From positions 248,001 to 312,000 of the forward strand of contig NZ_JAJPRF010000003.1 in the NCBI RefSeq assembly GCF_021206925.1: a stretch of 64,000 nt of DNA, read 5' to 3'. The DNA comes from Rhodoflexus caldus. Lineage in GTDB: Bacteria; Bacteroidota; Bacteroidia; Cytophagales; Thermoflexibacteraceae. The stretch's first letter is position 1. Each line of letters starts with the position of its first letter. Of this stretch, positions 19,602 through 30,461 are shown piece by piece. A program made the position numbers and the translations under genes. The notes below the pieces were generated by a model. The model was not told the origin of the DNA, did not search any database, and was given only the letters and a program-made list of their open reading frames with translations.

Positions 19602-19656
19602 ATAAACCCGTCATCTCAATCCTTTCACGCATTTTCCAACTTTGCCACAGATACTT

Positions 19657-22600
19657 ATGATGACAAAGCAACTATTCCGAAAACTCATGCTATGGGCATG
19701 GCTGATAATGCCCTCATGGGTATTTTCCCAGAGCGTAACCGTTACTTCTCCCAATGGCGGTGAGACGATTGCCGCAGGCAGTACAGTGAATATCTCCTTT
19801 ACCTTTACTTCGGGCGGTGCGGCCAACGATGTTTTCGTGTTGGAACTGCTTGCCGGCGGCGAGTTATACCAAACACTAACCCCGACCAGCATCACAACAA
19901 GCCCCTTTGTGTGGAACGTACCCGCAACAATTGCCACCCGCAACGATTACCGCATCCGCATCCGTCGGGCGACTGCTTCGGCAGACACCGACCAAAGCGA
20001 TAACAATTTTGCTATCACCGGCGGCAGAAGCATCAGCATTACACAACCCAATGGCGGACAGGCTTTGCCCAAACCCACAGTCTATGCCATCACTTGGACA
20101 AGTACCAACTTGCCGCCTACGGAAAACGTGCGTATAGAATTACTGAGAGGCAATGCTGTACAGGCAACATTGTTTGCTTCTACGCCTAACGATGGCAACG
20201 AACTTTGGAACGTAGCAGCAGATTTGCCCGATGATTCGAACTATCGCATCCGTATCAGCAGCATTTCAGACCCTTTTGTAAGAGTGGTAAGTGCTTCGGA
20301 TTTTATCATTGGGCGTGTGTTGCGGCTGATTGCTCCCAATGGCGGCGAGCGCTGGCAGCGCGGCACTACGCAAAATATTCAATGGCTGACCAGTATTCCC
20401 GGTAATTTTCGCATTGATTTATTGAAGGCAGGGGTGGTAACGGCAAACATTAGCACAGGAACAGGTGCGAATCCCTTTGCATGGACAGTTCCTAATACGC
20501 TGCCCGATGGCGATGACTACCGCATCCGTTTAACCAATAACTCCGACAACAGCATTACCATCACCTCTGCCAATAATTTCACAATTGGCAATTTTCTGAT
20601 TTTAACAGCCCCAACCACAGGCGCAAGCATACTGAAAGGCGCCAATTTCAACATTACATGGGAAACCAACCTGACGGGCAATTTGCGGATTGAGTTGTTG
20701 AGAGGTAGTACTACGGAGGTGTTGGCGGCAACTGTGCCCGCAACGGGCGGTACTTTCACGTGGACGGTTGCCAACACGCTTGCCGATGGCAATGATTACC
20801 GCATCCGTTTGGTAAGCATCGGCACAACGCCCGAATATACGGCAACTTCCGGCAATTTCTCCATTACAGGGCCTTTCGGGCGCATTACGTCCCCTAACGG
20901 AGGCGAAACTTTCAACCGTACACGTACCTATCCCGTTACTTGGCAAAGCAACTTGGGTGGCACTGTTTCCATTGATTTGGTTCGCGCCGGTACTGTTGTA
21001 CAAAATTTAGCGACTAATATTCCCAACAACGGAACTTTTAACTGGTTGATAGCCCCATCGGTAACGCCTGCCAATAACTACCGACTGCGCATTATCTTCA
21101 ATGCCAACGCTTCTACGTCGGAAAGTGCGGCAAATTTTGAAATTTTGGATGACCCAAGAATCACCGTGCAAACCCCCAATGGCGGCGAAACTTTCTTCCG
21201 CACCCGTAATCACAATATCGTATGGACGGACAATATTCCCGAAAACGTTAATATTGACCTTTTCAGAGGCGGCAATTTTCTGCGTCCGATTGCAACCAAT
21301 GTGCCAAGCAACGGCAACTTTTCATGGACTGTTCCCGCCGATGTAGCCATAGGCAATAACTACCGCGTGCGGGTAAGAAGTACAGCCGATACTACTATCC
21401 ACGATTTGAGCGACAATGATTTTGCAATTGCCAACAATGACACCATTCGCGTTACAGCCCCTAACGGAGGCGAAGCCATTGTTCGCGGGACAACATTTAT
21501 CATCCGCTGGCAAACCAACATTACATCGGGCAATGTGGTTATTGAATTGCTGCAAAACAATAGTTTGGTGGGGGTGGTTAATCCCGCTGTTCCTGCCGTG
21601 CAAGGCAGCTTTACATGGATTGCCCCTGCTACGCTTGGCATTGGGCAGGAGGGCTACCGCATCCGCATTCGCACGGAAGACAACCGCGCGACAGATGTAA
21701 GCGATAATGACTTCCGCCTATTGACACAACAGTTTGCCATTACAAGCCCCATGGCCGGCCAAGAATTGTTTCTGGGCTACTCCTACGACATCACATGGGT
21801 GAGCAACCTGCCGGGCAACGTGCGTGTAGACCTTTTCAGAGGCAGCGTGTTGTTGCGCAATATTGCCAACAACGTTACGGGCAATATTTTGCGCTGGACT
21901 GTTCCAACCGATTTGCCACCTTCGGGCGACTATCGCATCCGCATCACCAACCTTGCCGATGAAACCGTATTTACGGAAAATACCTTCCCCTTTACGCTGA
22001 TTCGCCCTTCTATCACTGTTTTAACGCCTAACGGCGGCGAGGCTTGGTTCAGCAATAATTTCCGCTATACTATCACTTGGCAGGACAACCTGAACAACAA
22101 CCCTGTTCGGATTGACTTGCTGAAAGGCGGCCTTGTGCTGCAAAATATTACTACGGCTGCCACAGGCGGTTCTTTTACATGGACACTGCCCGATAACCTC
22201 GTAACAGGCACAGACTACCGCGTTCGCATCAGCGCGGCGGGGGCTGCATCATTCTTTGATGACAGCAATGCCGATTTTCGCATTACCCGTCCGCAGATTA
22301 CAGTTACGTCTCCTGCCGCGGGGGATGTGTGGTTCCGCACGCTTAGCTACAACATCGTATGGCAAAGCAATCTGGGAAGTTTGCTGCACCGCATAGAGTT
22401 GGTTACGGCCGACGGAACCGTGGTGCGCGAATTAGCCAGCAGTGTAGAAAACAGCGGCACTTTCAACCGCTTGATTACACCTGATTTCCCATTGGGCAGC
22501 AATTACCGCGTGCGTGTATCTGTGGCAACCAACAGTGCCGTATTCGGACTAAGCAACGGCACATTCAGCATTGCAGTAGATAATATCCCTCCGGTCATAA

Positions 22601-24228
22601 CCAATACCAACTTCCCTGCCCTGCTCGATTTGAGCCAAACCATTGAGTCGGTAGCGCCTACCATTACCGCCACCGACAACGTAGGTATCCAACGCGTAGT
22701 ATGCTTCTTTAAAGGCATCACACAGGACAATAACTCGTTCCGCCAACGCGATGCCGTGCTGGTTGATAATGTTTATCGTGCATTTATTGCAAGTACCGAT
22801 TTTGACGAGCTGGGTGCAGAGTATTACTTTGAAGTAACCGACCGCTCCGGCAATATGACCCGTTCGCAGCGCGGTTATACCTACATCCGTTATTCAAGTG
22901 CGCGCGGCCTTGCTATCCCCGATATTCGCTTTGGCGATTCGCAGCAGGCTTATCAGATTGTTTCTGTTCCGCTCAATTTGGATAACAAAGAAGCCTTGGC
23001 CGTTTTTGAAAATGAACTGGGCGCTTACGACGATAAACGCTGGCGATTATTCCGCTATGAAAACGGGCAGAACATAGAATACCAACAGGGTTTCCGAAAT
23101 ATAGAATTGGGCAAAGGCTACTGGCTGATTGTCCGCGAACCGTGGTCGGGTGCATCCAACAGTATAGACTCCGGCCCCGGCGATGGTGCACGCGCCAATC
23201 AGGCAACACCTTTCGTAATGAACCTGCAACAAGGCTGGAATCAGATTGCATCACCTTACAACTTCAATATTTCATGGACAGACGTGCGCACAGCCAACAA
23301 CAACCCTAACGGATTGGGCAGGCTGCGCACTTTTGACGGCAGCTTTAAGGATGAAGACGTACTGCGCCGCTTCCGTGGCGGATTTGTATTCGCAGACCGA
23401 GCGCTCAACATCAATATTCCGGTGCTGAAAAACCGCAACGTAAACAGCGGCAGAGTGGAAGAAAACGACCCTACGCTGCGCAATGCGCTCAGCAGCGGCG
23501 AGTGGGATGTACAACTCCGCGTACGCAACGGTGAGTTAGTGAACAATCTGGCAGGCTTTGGTATGCGCCCCGATGCAAGCGAGTTGAAAGATGATTATGA
23601 CGACATGACCCTGCCCCGCTTTGCCGACTATCTGGAAGTAAATTTCCTGCGCCCGGCCTATTTCTATCCGAAATTTGCCAAAGATGTAGTGCCGACCGCC
23701 TCCGAATATGTGTGGGAGTTTACCGTAGAAAGCAATCGGACAGGGGGCAATACTACCATTGAATGGGACAACAGCTATTTCGGCAGCGGCAGTATGCTCT
23801 TCCTCTACGACCGCGAAGCACAGCGCTATGTGGATATGAGCAAAACCAATCGCTATGTATTCCGCAGCGAGCAGGCCGCCAACCGATTCCGCATCATTTA
23901 CGGCAACTGGGACTTTGTCAAAAAACAAATGAATACCGAGCAGGTGTCTTTCCAAGTGTGGCCAAATCCTGCACGCAGCGAGGCTCATCTGGACTTTGCC
24001 CTGCCCGACAACCTGCAAGGTGCCGATGTTCGCCTCAGCATCATCAACAGCATGGGGCAGGAAATTTTTAGTGAAGGTAAAAACTATGGCGCAGGCTTTC
24101 ATGCCCGCACATGGGAGCGCAATGCTTCACAGGCACTTGCAGCAGGCGTATATCTGTGCCGCATAGAAGTAAGCCATGCTTCGCTGGAAAAACCGATTGT
24201 AATTACCCGCCGACTGGTAATTGAATAA
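19657..24228 (+). CDS. Large secreted protein with ten Kre9/KNH-like repeats and a type IX sorting domain
   Basis: The protein is about 1523 residues. It has a signal peptide (to about residue 25) and ten tandem Ig-like domains of about 95 residues to about residue 975. It then has a domain with DNVGIQRVVCFFKG, a large region rich in aromatic and acidic residues, and a C-terminal type IX sorting domain (VWPNPARSEAHLDFALPD, GVYLCRIEV) of about 85 residues. Each repeat follows the pattern PNGGE, W, RIDLL, FxWxxP and YRIR. Such repeats occur in fungal Kre9/KNH cell-wall proteins and many bacterial surface proteins. A role as a cell-surface adhesin or structural protein is inferred. The ATG at 19657 or the next ATG at 19660 starts the signal peptide. 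Confidence 0.85.
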   Translation: MMTKQLFRKLMLWAWLIMPSWVFSQSVTVTSPNGGETIAAGSTVNISFTFTSGGAANDVFVLELLAGGELYQTLTPTSITTSPFVWNVPATIATRNDYRIRIRRATASADTDQSDNNFAITGGRSISITQPNGGQALPKPTVYAITWTSTNLPPTENVRIELLRGNAVQATLFASTPNDGNELWNVAADLPDDSNYRIRISSISDPFVRVVSASDFIIGRVLRLIAPNGGERWQRGTTQNIQWLTSIPGNFRIDLLKAGVVTANISTGTGANPFAWTVPNTLPDGDDYRIRLTNNSDNSITITSANNFTIGNFLILTAPTTGASILKGANFNITWETNLTGNLRIELLRGSTTEVLAATVPATGGTFTWTVANTLADGNDYRIRLVSIGTTPEYTATSGNFSITGPFGRITSPNGGETFNRTRTYPVTWQSNLGGTVSIDLVRAGTVVQNLATNIPNNGTFNWLIAPSVTPANNYRLRIIFNANASTSESAANFEILDDPRITVQTPNGGETFFRTRNHNIVWTDNIPENVNIDLFRGGNFLRPIATNVPSNGNFSWTVPADVAIGNNYRVRVRSTADTTIHDLSDNDFAIANNDTIRVTAPNGGEAIVRGTTFIIRWQTNITSGNVVIELLQNNSLVGVVNPAVPAVQGSFTWIAPATLGIGQEGYRIRIRTEDNRATDVSDNDFRLLTQQFAITSPMAGQELFLGYSYDITWVSNLPGNVRVDLFRGSVLLRNIANNVTGNILRWTVPTDLPPSGDYRIRITNLADETVFTENTFPFTLIRPSITVLTPNGGEAWFSNNFRYTITWQDNLNNNPVRIDLLKGGLVLQNITTAATGGSFTWTLPDNLVTGTDYRVRISAAGAASFFDDSNADFRITRPQITVTSPAAGDVWFRTLSYNIVWQSNLGSLLHRIELVTADGTVVRELASSVENSGTFNRLITPDFPLGSNYRVRVSVATNSAVFGLSNGTFSIAVDNIPPVITNTNFPALLDLSQTIESVAPTITATDNVGIQRVVCFFKGITQDNNSFRQRDAVLVDNVYRAFIASTDFDELGAEYYFEVTDRSGNMTRSQRGYTYIRYSSARGLAIPDIRFGDSQQAYQIVSVPLNLDNKEALAVFENELGAYDDKRWRLFRYENGQNIEYQQGFRNIELGKGYWLIVREPWSGASNSIDSGPGDGARANQATPFVMNLQQGWNQIASPYNFNISWTDVRTANNNPNGLGRLRTFDGSFKDEDVLRRFRGGFVFADRALNINIPVLKNRNVNSGRVEENDPTLRNALSSGEWDVQLRVRNGELVNNLAGFGMRPDASELKDDYDDMTLPRFADYLEVNFLRPAYFYPKFAKDVVPTASEYVWEFTVESNRTGGNTTIEWDNSYFGSGSMLFLYDREAQRYVDMSKTNRYVFRSEQAANRFRIIYGNWDFVKKQMNTEQVSFQVWPNPARSEAHLDFALPDNLQGADVRLSIINSMGQEIFSEGKNYGAGFHARTWERNASQALAAGVYLCRIEVSHASLEKPIVITRRLVIE
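19732..22578 (+). repeat. Ten tandem coding repeats of about 285 bases
   Basis: Ten copies of an approximately 95-codon unit can be counted from the recurring protein motif PNGGE or a variant of it (for example TTGAS, MAGQE, AAGDV). Copies differ strongly at the DNA level, so they are old duplications rather than a recent expansion, with DNA similarity limited to short blocks such as the YRIR and PNGG codons. Confidence 0.85.
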
Positions 24229-29447: not shown

Positions 29448-30461
29448 ATGGAACTTTATTTAGATTCGGTTGATATCAAGGAAATTGAGCAGGCTATGAA
29501 GCTCGGTTTTGTGGCAGGTCTGACCACTACGCCTACCTTCATGCACCGCGAGGGCATTACCGATATTGACGGTACAATCCTGAAACTGGCGCAAATGGTG
29601 CCCGTTTTGCAAGTAGAAGCACTCGGTGAAACGGCAGACGCTATTTACAACGAAGCCAAACGACTGATTGGCATTGGTTTAGACCCTAAGAAAACAGTGT
29701 TTAAAATACCTGTGTCTTTGGAAGGTGTAACGGCTTGCAAACGCCTTTCAAACGAAGGTATTATGGTCAATATCCACTTGGTTTATACGTTGCAACAGGC
29801 CTATATGGCAATGGCTGCCGGCGCAACTTACGTTTGCCCGCTCGTAGGTCGCCTGCAAGACCAAGGACATGATGCGCTGGCGCTGGTAGAACAGTGCGTA
29901 GAGGCCGTCAATTATTACGGCTACGACTCTAAAATCATGTTCTCTTCCGTGCGCCATGCCGAGCACGTTCGCAATGCAATTAACTTAGGCGTACACACTT
30001 GCACCGTTCCATGGAAAGTGATGAAATCGCTCACCGAAAATAACTTCACAACCATTGGCACACAGCAGTTCATTGAACATACCAAACTGATGACCATGCG
30101 TGTGAAAGATGTGATGAGCAGCGAAAATCCGGTAGTACAGGCACATCATTCGGTGATGGAGGCCATTGTGGTGATGACCAAGGCCGGATTTGGAGCAGTA
30201 ACGGTTGTTGAGGCCGATGGCACCGTAAAAGGAGTGTTTACCGATGGCGACCTGCGCCGCAATCTGGAACACGGCGAGGCTATTTTGCACAAGAAAATGG
30301 GTGAACTGACCTTTAAACAACCCGTTACCATTCAGGCCGATGCCCTCCTGTTTGAGGCTTCCGAGCTTTTCAAGAAAAGCAAAGTAGATACCATCGTAGT
30401 AGCCAATGGCAACACGGCGGTCGGCATGATTGATGTTCAGGACATCGTAAAACTGAGCTAA
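29448..30461 (+). CDS. Transaldolase/F6P-aldolase-like domain fused to a KdsD-type CBS pair
   Basis: Residues 1-215 are a TalC/FSA-type transaldolase barrel (MELYLDSVDI, VAGLTTTPT, KIPVSLEG, GATYVCPLVGRLQDQG). The Schiff-base Lys is Lys86 and Asp6 is kept. Three positions conserved in E. coli fructose-6-phosphate aldolase differ: Asn28 is Thr28, Thr109 is His110 and Tyr131 is Leu132, so the reaction or substrate may differ. Residues 220-337 are two CBS domains (MRVKDVMSS, GVFTDGDLRRNLEHG, GMIDVQDIVKL) closely resembling those of arabinose-5-phosphate isomerase KdsD. Here the SIS domain of KdsD is absent. The CBS pair likely senses a nucleotide or sugar nucleotide and controls the barrel. Confidence 0.85.
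   Translation: MELYLDSVDIKEIEQAMKLGFVAGLTTTPTFMHREGITDIDGTILKLAQMVPVLQVEALGETADAIYNEAKRLIGIGLDPKKTVFKIPVSLEGVTACKRLSNEGIMVNIHLVYTLQQAYMAMAAGATYVCPLVGRLQDQGHDALALVEQCVEAVNYYGYDSKIMFSSVRHAEHVRNAINLGVHTCTVPWKVMKSLTENNFTTIGTQQFIEHTKLMTMRVKDVMSSENPVVQAHHSVMEAIVVMTKAGFGAVTVVEADGTVKGVFTDGDLRRNLEHGEAILHKKMGELTFKQPVTIQADALLFEASELFKKSKVDTIVVANGNTAVGMIDVQDIVKLS

Follow-up and report, generated by a model that had tools for sequence, protein, structure and literature searches.

We found that a gene in the window (the whole 64-kb stretch of DNA analyzed here) encodes a transaldolase-type barrel fused to a CBS domain pair, and we consider it likely that this fusion is an alternative enzyme for making arabinose 5-phosphate (A5P) for Kdo synthesis, used in place of the unrelated KdsD. 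Kdo is an outer-membrane sugar whose synthesis begins with the formation of A5P, and to our knowledge the enzymes known to carry out this step are KdsD/KpsF/GutQ. We propose this role because of the Kdo-gene context of the fusion, its distribution across genomes, a natural swap involving genome G249, the type of CBS module, and the chemistry of E. coli FsaA and of a transaldolase structure (PDB 3upb). The original prediction of a CBS-regulated enzyme of aldolase fold that handles a sugar phosphate en route to cell-surface sugars is probably correct as far as it went; the Kdo pathway and the replacement of KdsD had been missed.

Architecture and conservation of the fusion

The fusion ORF is real, and the opposite strand of the same interval is interrupted by stops (Table 1). 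Pfam TAL_FSA covers residues 3-225 (121 bits, cut-off 27), and Pfam CBS matches two stretches from residue 219 (65 bits, cut-off 24). Together with the kpsF/KdsD profile and PDB matches described below, these results bear out the initial reading of a single ORF joining an aldolase-type barrel to a KdsD-like CBS pair. Structure modeling had also been suggested, and an AlphaFold2 model of the whole protein reached a mean pLDDT of 91.3 (pTM 0.71). Since the barrel dominated the fold list for the whole model, we modeled and fold-searched the CBS pair separately.

Table 1. Position of the fusion gene and its two parts in the window
Feature	Coordinates	Strand	Basis
Transaldolase-CBS fusion gene, 337 aa	29448..30461	+	ORF; Pfam TAL_FSA and CBS x2; AlphaFold2 model
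TalC/FSA-type barrel, residues 1-215	29448..30092	+	Columns of 77 fusions against 21 stand-alone transaldolases; PDB transaldolases, Z ~28
KdsD-type CBS pair, residues 217-335	30096..30452	+	Profile, sequence and fold matches; FTDGDLRR motif

The barrel passed the gathering cut-off of PF00923 (transaldolase/FSA superfamily) and is nearest to TalC-type transaldolases, with about 33% identity and Z of about 28 (PDB 1vpx, Z 28). It has its fold in common with the TalC/FSA family (TIGR00875; FsaA and the B. subtilis, T. maritima and Thermoplasma transaldolases) at 22-34% identity, with Z of ~28 over 212 residues to the TalC type and ~26 to FSA, and it also has Lys86 and the phosphate-site arginines in common with that family. 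Unlike TalC/FSA, the fusion adds a CBS pair, sits among Kdo genes, and scores 158.3 bits against the FSA/TalC equivalog TIGR00875, under the curated cut-off of 245.95 bits.

Lys86, which aligns with FSA Lys85 and which we take from its homologues to be the Schiff-base lysine, was present in 77/77 fusions, and Asp6, Glu57, Asn108, Arg135, Ser167 and Arg169 were likewise invariant across the 77 sequences. T28, H110 and L132 were also found in all 77, at positions where 21/21 stand-alone transaldolases have Asn, Thr and Phe, and Gln137 is a further family-specific residue that is invariant among the fusions. These sites would correspond to Asn28, Thr109 and Tyr131 of E. coli FsaA. Tyr at position 131 is found in FSA only, and the compared transaldolases have Phe there, so the fusion Leu departs from both. 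The early observation that Lys86 is retained while these three FSA residues become Thr, His and Leu therefore holds in every fusion member. Such invariant substitutions alongside kept catalytic residues indicate strong constraint and a changed active site, as in an enzyme family and not a decayed gene.

For the CBS part, kpsF/KdsD were the best NCBIfam models (76 bits), and the best PDB matches were CBS pairs of A5P isomerases (4o9k, 3fna, 3k2v), which were also the top folds when the pair was modeled alone (pLDDT 90.4). Only model positions 153-267 of TIGR00393 (KdsD/KpsF), its CBS region, align with the fusion, and the SIS half of the model, its catalytic domain, gave no match. In the motif FTDGDLRR (residues 264-271), the F, T, D, D, R and R are invariant. 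KdsD/KpsF/GutQ and the fusion are therefore alike in the type of their C-terminal CBS pair and, we propose, in their pathway slot before KdsA, whereas the catalytic domain is SIS in the former and a transaldolase TIM barrel bearing a Schiff-base lysine in the latter. One type of regulatory module would thus serve two enzymes that are unrelated but catalyze the same step. Separately, a stand-alone 127-aa CBS pair (L189, G272:C54:6110-6481) shares 36% identity with the fusion's pair; its genome has kdsA with no KdsD detected, and the pair is perhaps a split or truncated KdsD.

A single scan of genome contigs yielded 78 fusion loci (L004-L081), and we aligned 77 full-length fusions, including the window protein and those from a genome protein search. 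These are 55-98% identical to the window protein, and stand-alone transaldolases fall to about 36%. A barrel tree places the fusions on one side of a single, fully supported branch, and their host genomes belong to Bacteroidota, Desulfobacterota and a small number of further phyla. The comparison across transaldolase-family proteins that the original prediction had proposed thus shows both the domain order and the three substitutions recurring in all 77. A large, characterized family of this kind had been named as evidence against that prediction; the family is indeed large, and we found no curated model covering a transaldolase-CBS fusion. Literature searches on transaldolase with CBS, transaldolase with Kdo or KdsA, and A5P isomerase with CMP-Kdo gave no earlier description in open-access papers, and a subscription paper or database note is possible. 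The functional slot is already known; the family of proteins that occupies it appears to be new.

Kdo gene context and complementarity with KdsD

We clustered and counted the neighbors of the 78 fusion loci. In 41 of them kdsA precedes the fusion on the same strand at a distance of no more than 400 bp; 48 loci have a kdsC-like HAD gene, which in 39 lies within 400 bp. Other Kdo genes were kdsB (25 loci), waaA (9), kdnA (16) and kdnB (15); at least one Kdo gene was found in 60/78 loci, and several of the remaining 18 are short contigs. The typical order is kdsB-kdsA-[fusion]-kdsC-like. KdsA (351 bits, cut-off 242) and KdsB (210 bits, cut-off 155) passed their curated models, and WaaA matches the Kdo-transferase family of Pfam. 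The HAD protein beside the fusion (L019:9033-9731, L166:8011-8727 and others) scores about 50 bits against a KdsC cut-off of 208 and matches no Pfam family; it is probably a divergent Kdo-8-P phosphatase. The kdnA product matches the Kdo8N transaminase 5k8b (E 6.6e-128) and the kdnB product the Kdo 8-oxidase 5k8c (E 1.2e-127) in PDB sequence searches. KdnA and KdnB act after Kdo is formed, outside the A5P step, and since their homologues share operons with the fusion, the product of the pathway is most likely Kdo. Both in Bacteroidota and in other phyla, Kdo operons contain KdnA/KdnB homologues (L166:9763-12103, L169:10058-12374, about 15 loci).

No Kdo genes were found within the 64-kb window, whose fusion gene stands outside any Kdo operon; kdsA was confirmed elsewhere in the same genome, on contig C4 (C4:24519). 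The proximity of rfbA and rfbB had been taken as support for a cell-surface role, and this support proved weak, with rfbB near five and rfbA near two of the loci compared. We dropped the rfb neighborhood as a functional clue because it is conserved in few relatives.

To place the fusion in the class of A5P-forming Kdo enzymes, we examined its co-occurrence with kdsA and its complementarity with KdsD, and both were found across genomes. The window's genome has kdsA but no separate KdsD, and nothing in it matches kpsF better than the CBS pair of the fusion itself. Across 56 fusion genomes, kdsA was present in 55 and KdsD was missing from 54. Within the order and class of the window's genome, 97 genomes carried kdsA; of these, five had the fusion without KdsD and 92 had KdsD without the fusion, with none having both or neither (Fisher 1.6e-8; here and below, counts were crossed by genome from listings, and p values are nominal, the species being related and ancestry ignored). 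A phylum sample of 395 genomes, 288 of them with kdsA, contained six fusion genomes, with KdsD in 0/6, and KdsD was found in 277 of the 282 kdsA genomes lacking the fusion (nominal Fisher 6e-10). A larger sample of the window's order, Cytophagales, gave 97 kdsA genomes, of which 43 carry the fusion family (41 fusion only, 2 with both), 54 have KdsD only and none has neither (nominal Fisher 2e-25). With the fusion family in so many kdsA genomes, Kdo pathway annotation is incomplete for many Bacteroidota and Desulfobacterota, and inhibitors directed at KdsD would miss fusion-bearing genomes.

A gene-order comparison illustrates the exchange. Genome G249, a single contig of 7.03 Mb, has the order kdnA-kdnB-kdsA-kdsC-like-kdsB in which only some 90 bp separate kdsA from the HAD gene. 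We found no fusion in this genome, whose only transaldolase match is an ordinary one at 33%, and its KdsD lies at 5.70 Mb, 2 Mb from the Kdo operon. Genome G091 shares this gene order, except that the fusion sits between kdsA and the kdsC-like gene. This natural swap suggests that KdsD and the fusion occupy a common slot in this operon. Three genomes (G503, G528 and G416) have both enzymes. G503 and G528 each contain two kdsA types, with each type on the contig of its own partner. In G416 (L033, L118; Desulfobacterales), the single, fusion-type kdsA adjoins the fusion, and a full KdsD lies elsewhere. Three further genomes (G485, G470 and G469) had been candidates for fusion-type KdsA with neither enzyme and were rejected when a direct protein search found their fusion genes.

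The partner KdsA and competing readings

KdsA from fusion genomes is a distinct type with its own clade, 61-86% identical to the reference from locus L019, compared with 43-52% for KdsD-linked KdsA. Changes at A5P-site motifs, among them A61D, R120M, K139H and Q205R, are fixed in 44/44 fusion-type sequences; R120 is presumably a contact to the A5P phosphate. In Neisseria KdsA, the A5P pocket includes the Asn-Arg pair of KANRS, neighbors of the PAFLxR motif and loop L7 (PMC6650799). The fusion-type sequences retain the KxNRS phosphate motif. Their signature (KDNRS, CMQT, KHGQ, R205 and Y207) was seen in the KdsA of the window's own genome (L127:7409-8305, on C4) and in 43 related sequences. It is unlike that of the compared KdsD-linked KdsA, with the exception of one genus, g7, in which G249 and G494 have fusion-type KdsA together with KdsD and without the fusion.

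These altered motifs may mean either that the A5P site was rebuilt or that the substrate is different. The fusion might form another aldose phosphate, which the remodeled KdsA would join with PEP to give a Kdo-like sugar that KdsB would activate. We judge this improbable, although the separate KdsA clade with its fixed changes, the divergent kdsC-like HAD, and the correlation between fusion and KdsA distances (Mantel r 0.83) would all fit it. We favor A5P as the KdsA substrate because genus g7 runs the same KdsA type on KdsD, an A5P maker, and because the KdnA/KdnB homologues in the same operons are Kdo-specific; the retained KxNRS motif also argues against a different aldose. The altered KdsA, which could point to such an aldose, does count against A5P formation by the fusion, as do the three genomes with both enzymes, the score of the kdsC-like HAD far under the KdsC cut-off, and the position of the window gene outside a Kdo operon.

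A central-metabolic enzyme with an acquired CBS regulator, either a conventional transaldolase or a fructose-6-phosphate aldolase, is a very unlikely identity for the fusion. The fold and Lys86 are in common with such enzymes, but the window's genome already has a normal stand-alone transaldolase (L002), the departures T28, H110, L132 and Q137 are invariant, the score is 158 of the 246 bits needed for the FSA/TalC equivalog, and the neighbors are Kdo genes, not those of the pentose phosphate pathway. There is even less to recommend a regulatory pseudo-enzyme that senses CMP-Kdo for the operon while another enzyme makes A5P, since the altered neighbors of the catalytic site and the retained CBS pair that would fit it are set against seven invariant residues, Lys86 included, and the need for a second, unrecognized KdsD replacement.

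Possible chemistry and control

Ribose 5-phosphate and A5P differ solely at C2, and an imine at C1 acidifies the C2 proton. Under A5P formation by the fusion, there is close to an even chance that ribose 5-phosphate is epimerized at C2 by a Lys86 imine route, which we regard as the likeliest chemistry. Lys86 would form the imine at C1 of the aldose 5-phosphate, with the substrate held by Arg135, Arg169 and Ser167, and His110 and Glu57 would shift the C2 proton, whose loss and return on the other face would give A5P without cleavage of a carbon bond. His110 stands at what we take to be the place of the transaldolase proton-relay threonine. The changes at Asn28 and Phe/Tyr131 would alter contacts to the hydroxymethyl group of a ketose, which is missing in an aldose. 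KdsA would then use this A5P with PEP to form Kdo-8-phosphate.

According to its title, PDB 3upb, a match in the fold search, is a transaldolase to which A5P is covalently bound. This Francisella tularensis enzyme indicates that covalent A5P binding is possible on a transaldolase; it is larger and of the TalB type, unlike the fusion, and we know of no Kdo link for it. FsaA, for its part, produces A5P from glycolaldehyde and glyceraldehyde 3-phosphate (PMC9947464). Together, the complex and the FsaA reaction make a lysine imine at an aldose C1 plausible on this scaffold. A doubtful alternative for the fusion is an aldol reaction of which E. coli FSA is capable, in which glycolaldehyde adds to glyceraldehyde 3-phosphate; this route needs free glycolaldehyde, for which we saw no source. 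Isomerization of Ru5P as in KdsD is somewhat less likely still, and would have to be non-covalent because a C2 imine of Ru5P cannot tautomerize simply to A5P.

The ligand of 4o9k is presumably CMP-Kdo. The CBS pair of the fusion would probably provide end-product control through a CMP-sugar, either CMP-Kdo or CMP-Kdo8N. More tentatively, we suggest a second, non-homologous carbon entry to Kdo, in which lysine-imine chemistry (such as a ribose 5-phosphate 2-epimerase) is combined with a KdsD-type allosteric module and KdsA has co-evolved. The fusion is in any case a concrete new candidate activity in the transaldolase superfamily.

Elsewhere in the window, at 19642-24228, we observed a surface-type protein of 1528 aa, with many repeats starting "SPNGGE" and an apparent C-terminal sorting domain.
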